Assembly (NCBI RefSeq): GCF_012931685.1
Contig: NZ_JABANC010000001.1
Location: forward strand, 868,001 to 932,000
DNA length: 64,000 nucleotides
Direction: 5' to 3'
DNA from: Hanstruepera ponticola
Lineage (GTDB): Bacteria; Bacteroidota; Bacteroidia; Flavobacteriales; Flavobacteriaceae
Notes under the pieces: model-generated
The model's input: the letters and a program-made list of their open reading frames with translations, nothing else
Told to the model about the DNA's origin: nothing
The model's database searches: none
Position numbers and translations under genes: made by a program
Shown here: positions 9,567 to 12,272 of the stretch, piece after piece
Position numbering within the stretch: the stretch's first letter is position 1
Layout of the letters: each line of letters starts with the position of its first letter

Positions 9567-9998
9567 ATGGAAACAGTAAAACAAAAGAGTTGGTTCGCAA
9601 GAAATTGGCCATGGGTCATTCCAGTAGGAGGCTGTTTAACTGTAATTTTACTATTTGTGTTTGGAGTTGGTGCAGCTATTTTTGGAGTTAGTAAAGCTTT
9701 AAAAAACAGCACACCATATACATATGCTATTGAATTGGCAAATAATAACACAGAAGTGGTTGCTTTGCTTGGTGAAGATATTCAGTCAGACGGAATGTTT
9801 AAAGGCGATATTTCCTTAAAGAATAATACAGGACATGCGGATTTAAAGATTCCAATTAAAGGTGAGAAAGGAAAAGGCATTATTGTATTAAAAGGCGATA
9901 AATATGATGGCGACTGGAGTTATGATGAACTTTATGTCATTATAAAAGAGACACAAGAAGAAATCAATTTATTAGATAAATCTTTAGAGGGAATCTAA
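9567..9998 (+). CDS. Coa1-like single-pass membrane protein
   Basis: A 143-residue protein with a cytoplasmic N-terminus (METVKQKSWFARNWPW), one membrane helix (about residues 16-40, VIPVGGCLTVILLFVFGVGAAIF) and a small soluble domain ending 'GDWSYDELYVIIKETQEEINLL'. The layout and the 'GDISLKNNTGHADLKIPIKGEKGKGIIVLKGDKYDGDWSYDEL' type domain resemble the cytochrome oxidase assembly factor Coa1 family found in many Flavobacteriia. It is the only plus-strand gene in the biotin region, and its end overlaps the end of bioA by 15 bases (convergent). Function in this lineage is unproven. Confidence 0.75.
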   Translation: METVKQKSWFARNWPWVIPVGGCLTVILLFVFGVGAAIFGVSKALKNSTPYTYAIELANNNTEVVALLGEDIQSDGMFKGDISLKNNTGHADLKIPIKGEKGKGIIVLKGDKYDGDWSYDELYVIIKETQEEINLLDKSLEGI

Positions 9999-11249
9999 AG
10001 CTTCTATAATTACAGAATAAACTTTTTCCAATTCAGTCTTTGAAATTACATAAGGCACTTGAATGTATATAGTATTTCCTAAAGGTCTTAAAAAGACACC
10101 ACGTTCCATAAAAAACTTTAATAGTTTATCGCGTAAACTACCATATCGCTCCATTTTAGTGTCAAGGTCTAGCGCATAAACAACACCTAGTTGTCTTGTA
10201 GATTTTACTTTTGGATGCGACTTGATTGTGTTATTAAAAGCACGATGTGACTTAATTATTTCCTTAATATTATTTTGAATAGCTTCAGATTGTAACAGTT
10301 CTATTCCTGCAAGTGCAGTGGCACAGGCTATAGGATTTCCCGAATAGGTATGGCAATGAAAAAAACCTTTAGCCATGTTATCACTTAAAAAGGCATCGTA
10401 AATATCTTGCGTACATGATGTTATAGCCATTGGAATTAATCCAGCAGTCAAGGCTTTACTTAAACACATAATATCCGGTTTGGTCTCAATATAATCTGAA
10501 GCAAAATTCTTTCCAGTTTTACCAAATCCAGTCATGACTTCGTCGGCAATAGTCAGAATGTTTTGCTCTTTAAAGAATTTTAAAATGTCGTTTAAACCAT
10601 TGGTATCATGAATGGTCATACCTGCCGCACCTTGTAGTAAGGGTTCGTAAATAAATGCAGCTACTTGATGATTAGTAGTTATCTCTTTAAGTTTGTTTAA
10701 AATTATCTCGTGATTTTCTCCATTGGGTGTAGGAATACGTATGACATCAATTAAGAAATCTTCAAAAGGACCATTGTAAACCGATAAGCCAGACACACTC
10801 ATGGCTCCAAAGGTATCGCCATGAAAACCGTTTTCAAAAGCAATAAAAGTTGACCGTTTTTCGCCCTTATTAAAGTAATACTGTAAAGCCATTTTTATAC
10901 CAGCTTCAACTGCTGTAGAACCATTGTCGTTAAAGAAAATTTTATTTTGACCCTTTGGAAGAATTTTAATGAGTTCTTCCGATAATTTAACAGCTGACTC
11001 ATGTGTAAAATCGCTAAACATAATTTGGTCTAGCTGTTGCATTTGAGCATAAGTTTTTTCAATAATATAATCGTTGCAATGCCCATACATACAGGTGTAC
11101 CAAGATGAAATGGCATCAATGTATTCATTACCATTTTCATCTGTTAATATGCAGCCTTTGGCTTTTACAATGGCAATGCTTTCAGGCTGTAACTGATGCT
11201 GCTTTAAAGGGTGCCAAAGGTGTTTTTTATCGCGTTCTTGTAAGCTCAT
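9984..11249 (-). CDS. bioA: Adenosylmethionine-8-amino-7-oxononanoate aminotransferase
   Basis: A PLP-dependent class III aminotransferase that turns KAPA into DAPA using S-adenosylmethionine. Landmarks: N-terminal HLWHPLKQ, substrate-site Trp50-Tyr51 (SSWYTC, as in BioA rather than other class III enzymes), 'NDNGSTAVEAGIKMALQYY', 'IADEVMTGFGKTG' with the PLP aspartate, and the Schiff-base Lys265 in CLSKALTAG. Its 421 residues are the usual length. The start at 11249 gives the conserved N-terminus. A GIY-YIG cassette lies between it and bioD, and the hairpin at 11261-11291 falls directly upstream of its start. Confidence 0.96.
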   Translation of the reverse strand: MSLQERDKKHLWHPLKQHQLQPESIAIVKAKGCILTDENGNEYIDAISSWYTCMYGHCNDYIIEKTYAQMQQLDQIMFSDFTHESAVKLSEELIKILPKGQNKIFFNDNGSTAVEAGIKMALQYYFNKGEKRSTFIAFENGFHGDTFGAMSVSGLSVYNGPFEDFLIDVIRIPTPNGENHEIILNKLKEITTNHQVAAFIYEPLLQGAAGMTIHDTNGLNDILKFFKEQNILTIADEVMTGFGKTGKNFASDYIETKPDIMCLSKALTAGLIPMAITSCTQDIYDAFLSDNMAKGFFHCHTYSGNPIACATALAGIELLQSEAIQNNIKEIIKSHRAFNNTIKSHPKVKSTRQLGVVYALDLDTKMERYGSLRDKLLKFFMERGVFLRPLGNTIYIQVPYVISKTELEKVYSVIIEALDSL

Positions 11250-11260
11250 AGTTATACTGT

Positions 11261-11291
11261 CGTCATTCCGAACTTGTTTCGGAATCTCATC
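11261..11291 (+). repeat. REP-like hairpin, left flank of the GIY-YIG cassette
   Basis: An 8-bp inverted repeat ATTCCGAA/TTCGGAAT (11265-11272 and 11278-11285) around the loop CTTGT, within a unit that begins CGTCA and ends TCTCATC. A related unit in opposite orientation lies at 11618-11647. A second, weaker inverted repeat ATCTCA/TGAGAT overlaps its right side (11284-11303). It sits between bioA and the GIY-YIG gene. Confidence 0.7.
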
Positions 11292-11332
11292 TGTTTGTGA
11301 GATACAGGAATAAATTCATCATCTCATTTATG

Positions 11333-11611
11333 TTAGTAATCTAATGTTTTTAAAGTAGGATTAATTGTTTTTACTAAATTCAACTTCCATTCTTTATGCC
11401 AGTTCTTAAGTTGTTTTTCTCTAGCTATAGCTTGTTCAATATCAGAAAATGTTTCAAAATAAATAAGGTCTTTAGTTTTATATTTTTTGGTGAATTTTGA
11501 AGCAGTATCATCATAATGTTCTTCTAGTCTTTTATGTAAATTAGCCGTTACACCAATATAGAAAGTTGTTCTATATTTATTAGTTAATATGTAAACATAA
11601 CTTGTTTTCAT
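11333..11611 (-). CDS. Small GIY-YIG nuclease-domain protein
   Basis: A 92-residue protein consisting of little more than a GIY-YIG domain: YVYILTN (GIY equivalent), FYIGVTANLHKRLEEH (YIG plus the catalytic Arg), 'YFETFSDIEQAIAREKQLKNW' with the conserved Glu of the active site, and NPTLKTLDY. This is the UPF0213/YhbQ-like class of single-domain GIY-YIG proteins, whose in vivo target is unknown. It interrupts the biotin operon between bioD and bioA and is flanked by two related hairpins in inverted orientation, which suggests a mobile cassette rather than a biotin gene. Start: ATG at 11611. Confidence 0.88.
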   Translation of the reverse strand: MKTSYVYILTNKYRTTFYIGVTANLHKRLEEHYDDTASKFTKKYKTKDLIYFETFSDIEQAIAREKQLKNWHKEWKLNLVKTINPTLKTLDY

Positions 11612-11617
11612 TATTTT

Positions 11618-11647
11618 GTGTGACCCTGAAACTAGTTCAGGGTGACG
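11618..11647 (-). repeat. REP-like hairpin, right flank of the GIY-YIG cassette
   Basis: An 8-bp inverted repeat ACCCTGAA/TTCAGGGT (11623-11630 and 11636-11643). Read on the minus strand the unit begins CGTCACCCTGAACTAG, which parallels the CGTCATTCCGAACTTG of the left unit; stem bases differ but are compensated on both arms. It lies directly upstream of the GIY-YIG start and 7 bases before the bioD stop. Confidence 0.7.
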
Positions 11648-11654
11648 ATGACAA

Positions 11655-12272
11655 CTATAATTTTTCTAATTCAACTTTAAATTGATTGGCATATTCCTTA
11701 ACCACATTTTTATCAAAATAAGGTTCTTCAGCTATACGTCCTATGACTTTTACTCCAGTCATTTTTTGAATGATATCTTCGGTTGTTTCATGTTTATTAC
11801 CACTGTAGATTATTGAAACATCAAACCCTTTCTCTTTTAACAGATTAACCGTTAACAACGTATGATTAATACTACCTAAATAGTGTCTAGAAACCACAAT
11901 CACTTTATAATCAAGCTGTATTAAATCAAAAATGGTTTGTTTCTTATTAAAAGGAACTAATAAACCGCCAGCACCTTCAATAACTAAATGGTTTTTTGTT
12001 TTTGGTTCACTTATATCTGATAAATTTATTTTCAATCCATCAATTTCAGCCGCAGCATGCGGACTCATAGGTGTGTTTAAAGCAAAGCTATTATCAAAGA
12101 ACTTTGATTTTGAATTAGAAACTAGCCTTTGTACTTTTTTAGTATCGCAGTTATTTAAATCGCCAGCTTGAATGGGCTTCCAATAGTCGGCTTCTAAAGC
12201 TTCAGTAATTATTGCAGAAGCAATGGTTTTGCCAACATCAGTTGATATACCAGTTATAAATAGTTTTTTCAT
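11655..12272 (-). CDS. bioD: Dethiobiotin synthetase
   Basis: An ATP-dependent carboxylase that closes the ureido ring of DAPA to give dethiobiotin. It shows the P-loop 'FITGISTDVGKTIASA' near residue 5, 'YWKPIQAGD' for substrate binding, 'MSPHAAAE' and 'VIEGAGGLLVPF'. At 205 residues it is of usual or slightly short length. Its ATG overlaps the stop codon of the DUF2007 gene by four bases (ATGA), implying translational coupling in the order bioF, DUF2007 gene, bioD. Confidence 0.95.
   Translation of the reverse strand: MKKLFITGISTDVGKTIASAIITEALEADYWKPIQAGDLNNCDTKKVQRLVSNSKSKFFDNSFALNTPMSPHAAAEIDGLKINLSDISEPKTKNHLVIEGAGGLLVPFNKKQTIFDLIQLDYKVIVVSRHYLGSINHTLLTVNLLKEKGFDVSIIYSGNKHETTEDIIQKMTGVKVIGRIAEEPYFDKNVVKEYANQFKVELEKL

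Follow-up and report, generated by a model that had tools for sequence, protein, structure and literature searches.

Hairpin repeats that go with an enzyme of their own are known from the REP-RAYT systems and REPINs, in which GTAG REPs accompany a Y1 tyrosine transposase and the hairpins are particular to each RAYT. The GIY-YIG domain is recognised by its conserved residues Y, YIG, R, H and E, which have known roles. A homing endonuclease is carried by an intron or intein and cleaves alleles that lack this insertion, Slx1 cuts branched DNA, and the UPF0213-type stand-alone GIY-YIG proteins are those of the YhbQ type.

A second REP super-family, the CGTC REPs, includes Neisseria dRS3 and Rickettsia RPE-4 and RPE-6. 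As described (Di Nocera et al, 2013; PMC3733652), these repeats have a CGTC, TGTC or CCTC tag, a stem of 8-9 bp that starts almost invariably with A, T, a loop of 4-5 nt and a 3-nt tail that is mostly CCA, and they occur as dispersed dimers. Many REPs are plausibly transcribed, and the CGTC REPs "apparently lack a dedicated transposase" and were possibly moved by a broad spectrum of transposases. Among open-licence papers in PMC, with preprints outside the scope, we found no report that links such hairpins to a GIY-YIG nuclease.

The window, by which we mean the whole 64-kb stretch of DNA that was analysed, comes from a genome of 3.18 Mb that gene content and relatives place in the Flavobacteriaceae. 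An earlier note on it had described a 92-residue GIY-YIG gene between two inverted hairpins, and we found both hairpins at the positions it gave. The features are as follows; the names bioA and bioD are our own assignment from sequence and operon order.

11250..11654, no strand: insert between bioA and bioD, about 405 bp, ends approximate, from comparison with same-genus genomes
11333..11611, minus strand: gene for a 92-aa stand-alone GIY-YIG nuclease of the A3 (hairpin-associated) subfamily, PF01541 at 60.5 bits
11261..11285, plus strand: CGTC hairpin downstream of the nuclease gene, tag outward, CGTC-ATTCCGAA-CTTGT-TTCGGAAT
11623..11647, minus strand: CGTC hairpin upstream of the nuclease gene, tag outward, CGTC-ACCCTGAA-CTAGT-TTCAGGGT
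11655..12272, minus strand: bioD, upstream neighbour of the insert in operon order
9984..11249, minus strand: bioA, downstream neighbour of the insert in operon order
12269..12272, minus strand: overlap of orf137 and bioD, empty in the window; a related cassette is present here in two other loci (L043 and L059)

Each hairpin has eight perfect pairs and a 5-nt loop. The two stems differ at pairs 2, 3 and 5; every change is compensated, as the note had said. Its tag, CGTCA, has to be shortened: CGTC stands, and the A is the first stem base. The ends after the stem, which it called C-rich, are CTCATC and CACACA and are not markedly so. The first and second stem positions are A, T in the hairpin at 11261-11285, and the second position is C in that at 11623-11647. 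A strict hairpin was defined as GTCA and onward, an 8-bp stem with at least 7 pairs, a loop of 3-7 and then C; the 64-kb window holds none besides the two of the cassette. A loose pattern that covers both, and was derived from these same two copies, is expected 0.02 times in shuffles. When folded as ssDNA with flanks, the region of 11623-11647 beat 200 of 200 shuffles, and that of 11261-11285 was equalled by 3 of 200. Rfam gave a single match, under the gathering score, and a phage search gave no match.

The AF2 model of the protein is a bare GIY-YIG domain (pLDDT 93), in which Y7, Y18, G20, R28, H32 and E65 are invariant across the 27 rows of the A3 profile. The nearest solved folds found by Foldseek are UPF0213 (1zg2, E 1e-3) and Slx1 (E 0.03), and the nearest solved relatives by sequence are 1zg2 and 1ywl, both UPF0213-type. 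The median dN/dS over 39 pairs is 0.108, which indicates purifying selection on the enzyme as judged from codon comparison, and the protein is more conserved than BioA and BioD at equal divergence of four-fold sites.

The note likened the hairpins to REP/REPIN elements and held that a lack of further copies would speak against this; they do form a dispersed, REP-like family. Dozens were found in the window's own genome: a window-type pattern with up to 3 mismatches matched 30 places, a second hairpin type, taken from around another GIY-YIG gene (L005), gave 29 matches, and a third gave 11, of which 7 were already among the window-type matches. Reversed-pattern controls for all three types gave 0. 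A strand imbalance was seen for the type GTCATTCCTGCGNANGCAGGNATC, with 21 reverse vs 8 forward copies in contig orientation, which may follow the direction of replication or transcription. The genome has nine GIY-YIG matches, five of them at 114-142 bits to the A3 profile; the window protein, itself a row of that profile, scores 139.7 bits. Strict hairpins bracket three of these five genes (L001, L005 and L006, the last being the window gene). By eye, L003 has a bracketing pair with decayed tags and L007 is bracketed by longer imperfect GTCATTGCGAG-type hairpins. None of the four non-A3 genes (L002, L004, L008 and L009) has a strict hairpin; one of them, a 605-aa UvrC-like GIY-YIG gene inside the window (L008), has two untagged AT-rich 7-bp palindromes.

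We then used a profile of five own-genome proteins to collect relatives and took the best 80 of 552 confirmed ones. These were mostly Bacteroidota and included Ignavibacteriota, Balneolota, candidate phyla, Melainabacteria, a Treponema, Bacillota and alphaproteobacteria. Among these best 80 of 552, strict hairpins lay within 500 bp on both sides of the gene in 59, on one side in 15 and on neither in 6. Hairpin density fell from 7.25 per kb at 0-150 bp from the gene through 1.70, 0.48, 0.16, 0.14, 0.053 and 0.036 to 0.051 per kb at 7-10 kb, and a hairpin was present in 98 of the 120 intergenic gaps beside the gene vs 36 of the 675 other gaps in the same loci. At the two gene ends, the median distance between correctly oriented hairpins and the matched stretch was 29 nt (n = 63) and 31.5 nt (n = 64). 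In the innermost pairs the tags pointed outward in 44 of 58 and the polarity was another in 14. A locus from 12 further genomes, L130, is bracketed by hairpins with their tags inward. A plasmid collection held 33 matching records, of which 10 were fetched. Eight of these had a hairpin on either side of the gene: Azospirillum lipoferum, Neisseria gonorrhoeae (dRS3-like), Sinorhizobium meliloti (CCTC tag), Novosphingobium aromaticivorans (CGTCG), three Sphingobium and an Aeromonas. A Rhizobium had hairpins on a single side, and Planktothrix had none.

Of the GIY-YIG subfamilies compared, one has this link. When all Pfam GIY-YIG matches were pooled the link was weaker, 5 of 29 alphaproteobacterial loci having a strict hairpin nearby. 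The A3 profile consists of 27 hairpin-linked proteins, every row coming from a hairpin-bearing locus and four alphaproteobacterial ones (L153, L156, L169 and L173) having been chosen for that; searched in the same 190 alphaproteobacterial genomes, it gave 97 listed matches above 80 bits and a remainder below 66 bits. We examined the 70 highest-scoring of these 97 (30 returned and 40 fetched). The 40 fetched A3-type loci had a strict hairpin within 500 bp on both sides in 7, on one side in 10 and on neither in 23, that is in 17 of 40, or 16 of 39 without L209, a chosen profile row that recurs among them. At 20 non-A3 loci, these controls being the higher-scoring full-length matches with fragments omitted, there were none. 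At 24 of the 30 returned loci, among which chosen rows recur as L179, L187 and L189 and L119 recurs as L180, the stretch held at least one strict hairpin (1.3 kb away in L204). Part of the 23 strict-negative loci have variant hairpins with a GTCG or GCCA tag and longer stems; at the others none was seen. Any perfect hairpin of at least 8 bp within 300 bp was found at 28 of 40 fetched and 23 of 25 returned A3-type loci vs 3 of 20 non-A3 loci, five of the 30 returned loci being dropped from this count as lying on short contigs and the end of L194 being misplaced by 72 bases. The alphaproteobacterial gap contrast was 11/43 vs 7/159 for A3-type and 0/21 vs 1/61 for non-A3 genes. Across 12 further genomes a strict hairpin lay in the stretch of 12 of 24 short GIY-YIG genes and of none of the 6 long (UvrC-like) ones, L138, with a 400-codon frame, being the L117 gene and counted as short. 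One alphaproteobacterium (G135) has twelve A3-profile matches, and its hairpin types differ at those read.

Gene and hairpins also go together between genomes. We surveyed 149 Flavobacteriaceae genera, one genome each, with a pattern that covers one hairpin type, and called an A3-type match at E below 1e-20, a cut fixed after the list had been viewed and marking a gap less clean than in alphaproteobacteria. Of 1008 hairpins in total, 905 were in the 71 genomes that gave such a match, a few of them from copies that are interrupted by stop codons or match in part (G211, G219), and 103 were in the 78 without; the note had regarded equal abundance in gene-less genomes as evidence against a link, and hairpins were far rarer there. 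At least four hairpins were present in 44 of 71 genomes with the gene vs 7 of 78 without (Fisher 3e-12, the genera not being independent). Seven genera without the gene hold 7-20 hairpins each, and 15 with it hold none of the surveyed type. The note's expectation that hairpins accompany GIY-YIG genes is thus borne out for the A3 subfamily, both locally, in the gaps beside the gene, and across genomes. Several A3-type copies, L088 among them, are split or have stop codons, so copies decay.

That structure is kept while sequence varies, as the note supposed, was seen when matches were anchored on tag and loop only, with no pairing demanded. The 176 anchored matches within 300 bp of 80 genes had 95.0% Watson-Crick stem cells and 131 were perfect; beyond 2 kb, 78 matches occurred in 1.02 Mb and 12 were perfect. 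In the Bacteroidota loci L040-L074 the two stems of a cassette were identical in 0 of 19, where 4.45 would be expected at random (P 0.0024). Of all 44 pairs with the usual polarity 11 were identical, and partners were more alike than random ones. CGTC-2 and -3 REPs favour heterodimers, which was noted without explanation (Di Nocera et al, 2013; PMC3733652). For genomes with several A3-type genes we compared hairpins between paralogues, using 46 fetched loci from 16 genomes with at least two such genes, 41 of the loci having a hairpin of at least 7 bp within 250 bp. The mean edit distance was 5.0 between left and right hairpins of one gene (n = 29) vs 10.5 between those of different genes (n = 73), and 0 of 5000 within-genome permutations reached the observed matching. 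Local duplication of a dimer could also explain hairpins that match their paralogue.

Filled and empty sites could be compared in several lineages. At the bioD-bioA junction, where the note had suggested looking for empty sites, the end of bioD overlaps the start of bioA and the site is empty in all four same-genus genomes (G202-G205). Related cassettes are found at bioD/bioA in eight other fetched loci (L040, L041, L042, L044, L048, L052, L088 and L276, the last of which looks like the same strain as L041). In L043 and L059 the cassette is at the junction upstream of bioD; bioD/bioA is clean in L059, as orf137/bioD is in the window. Seven of the nine bio-operon copies in the tree form one clade (96/88) with L043 and L059 inside and L044 and L048 outside. 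These sequences suggest old residence, one local move and losses; since most bio-operon copies look vertically inherited, the cassette itself would move rarely. Recent horizontal transfer as the source of the 87-89% protein identity to three genera was rejected, because four-fold sites are about as diverged (25-41% identical for these three) as those of bioA/bioD; the identity is explained by constraint. In Azospirillum lipoferum (L330) the unit lies between sufB and sufC of the suf operon, and four relatives are without it; here, as in the bio operon, the cassette separates two adjacent genes that belong to the same operon.

Seven Sphingobium plasmids, at least 95% alike across the region, match the cassette region whole. 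At the same site, in the gap between fnrL and a response regulator gene, TomTYG64 has one symmetric, doubly tagged hairpin, GTCACCCCGGG-TCAAG-CCCGGGGTGAC, which equals a fusion of the outer arm of one cassette hairpin with the remainder of its partner. TomTYG74 has a decayed form of it (the single-hairpin loci are L342 and L343, of which L342 is the decayed one), and two more relatives have neither hairpin nor cassette. Symmetric hairpins are rare elsewhere, with 0 near the gene (loci with 263 strict hairpins) and two places far from it (108). The simplest reading of the single hairpin is a scar, presumably left by a deletion through the stem arms; a pre-insertion target is possible. Empty and filled pairs showed no clear target-site duplication, the junctions having at most short, uncertain repeats.

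Dispersed neighbouring hairpins also mostly show the polarity of the cassette, in 18 of 28 pairs and, in separate counts for two genomes, in 12 of 14 (G351) and 14 of 18 (G341), and form short gene-less dimers of about 70-80 bp. In G341 the conservation of these dimers stops at the tags: L426 and L427 agree to 97% over 72 bp and have 40-bp flanks at background (0.62 and 0.62, against an all-pair mean of 0.57); an A3-type gene lies within 1 kb of them. L432 and L433 agree to 96% and resemble each other in their flanks too, perhaps through segmental duplication. Most G351 dimers are enclosed in a unit that ends in AGGCTGTCT terminal inverted repeats, and in that genome their spread is probably due to another transposase. 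The G351 loci L400-L411 have a nearly constant 28-bp spacer, and the MITE-like unit around them has terminal inverted repeats resembling AGGCTGTCTGAAAAG; it looks as if such an element had taken up a REP dimer. By eye, no transposase-type terminal inverted repeats were noticed outside the hairpins at the window or at the G341 dimers. GC skew sampled in G351 and G341 was too weak to place replichores for a strand-bias test of single hairpins. A RAYT as present mobiliser was rejected for the window's own genome, where the Y1 (RAYT/IS200-type) transposase model PF01797 had no match at E <= 0.001; in four other genomes 0 of 11 Y1 loci had hairpins within 800 bp.

We consider it close to certain that the A3 GIY-YIG subfamily and CGTC-type REPs belong together, and the most economical reading is that the enzyme acts on the hairpins. 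Our preferred interpretation, to which we give a probability of about 0.62, is that the insert is a mobile REP dimer with its tags outward and a GIY-YIG nuclease gene as its spacer, and that the nuclease drives the spread of the hairpins. A nuclease that trims or resolves hairpins and cruciforms in policing or repair, mobilises nothing and stays where it is useful would fit the purifying selection, the conservation of the protein beyond that of BioA and BioD and the closeness of its fold to UPF0213 and the branched-DNA nuclease Slx1. An enzyme acting in trans, however, needs neither two-sided bracketing with a prevailing polarity nor a hairpin type of its own for each paralogue, and we regard this explanation as unlikely, if the least unlikely of the alternatives.

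The hairpins might instead be passive cargo or landing places, spread by other transposases or by recombination with the nuclease gene riding along. The terminal-repeat unit around the G351 dimers speaks for this, as do the broad spectrum of transposases suggested as possible movers of CGTC REPs (Di Nocera et al, 2013; PMC3733652) and the single hairpin at the Sphingobium site, which deletion between stem arms can also explain. It leaves unexplained why other GIY-YIG genes lack the hairpins (0 of 20), why the association recurs in several phyla and why none of 11 Y1 loci is flanked, and the conservation of G341 dimers stops at the tags; we think it improbable. We have little faith in a cis-regulatory role as terminators or mRNA stabilisers for the nuclease gene or its operon neighbours: oriented hairpins close to both gene ends and the plausible transcription of many REPs (PMC3733652) agree with it, but dozens of copies far from the gene, a conserved tag and co-occurrence at the level of genomes are unexpected for a terminator. 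Finally, chance or a common preference for intergenic space would account for hairpins and gene both being intergenic; it is rejected by the contrast between gaps beside the gene and other gaps, and we give it practically no credence.

If the insert is a mobile dimer driven by its nuclease, the protein, whose nearest solved folds are UPF0213 and Slx1, would recognise the hairpin as a branched or cruciform structure and cut near the CGTC foot. Repair or replication of the cut DNA would then place copies of the dimer, which may or may not include the gene, in further intergenic sites, and the gene-less dimers would be non-autonomous relatives, as REPINs are to REP-RAYT. Linkage is what we observed; cutting and mobilisation by the nuclease we infer. 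It is about an even bet that these loci represent a widespread class of mobile element, present from Bacteroidota to alphaproteobacteria, Neisseria and candidate phyla, with a GIY-YIG protein of about 92 residues as sole enzyme and a CGTC-footed hairpin read by structure, and that this enzyme is the missing partner of the CGTC REPs. Which enzyme serves these repeats is a question posed in the paper that described them (PMC3733652), and our data name a concrete candidate in several phyla. If the proposal is true, systems of hairpin repeats have originated two or more times around enzymes that are unrelated, and a mobile element can be driven by a minimal GIY-YIG domain in place of a transposase.

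The hairpins of the window share with CGTC REPs the unpaired CGTC tag, the 8-bp stem, the 5-nt loop and tens of dispersed copies. Their tails, CTC and CAC, differ from the majority CCA, which is found at L001, L005 and many alphaproteobacterial loci. Four of the hosts named in PMC3733652, A. lipoferum, S. meliloti, N. aromaticivorans and Neisseria, carry a hairpin-flanked A3-type gene; that paper describes no dedicated enzyme, whereas here one GIY-YIG subfamily is linked. Non-A3 alphaproteobacterial GIY-YIG proteins, as of the UPF0213/YhbQ type, differ in scoring below 66 bits to the A3 profile and in their lack of strict hairpins at the 20 control loci. The fold of the catalytic domain is common to the window enzyme, I-TevI-type homing endonucleases and Slx1. 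Unlike GIY-YIG homing endonucleases, the window gene is an intergenic insert in which no intron or intein was seen, has no separate DNA-binding domain and has hairpins at both ends. With REP-RAYT systems the locus shares inverted hairpins of a matching type around one enzyme gene, and many gene-less short dimers; there a GTAG tag goes with an HUH/Y1 enzyme, whereas here a CGTC tag goes with a non-homologous GIY-YIG nuclease.
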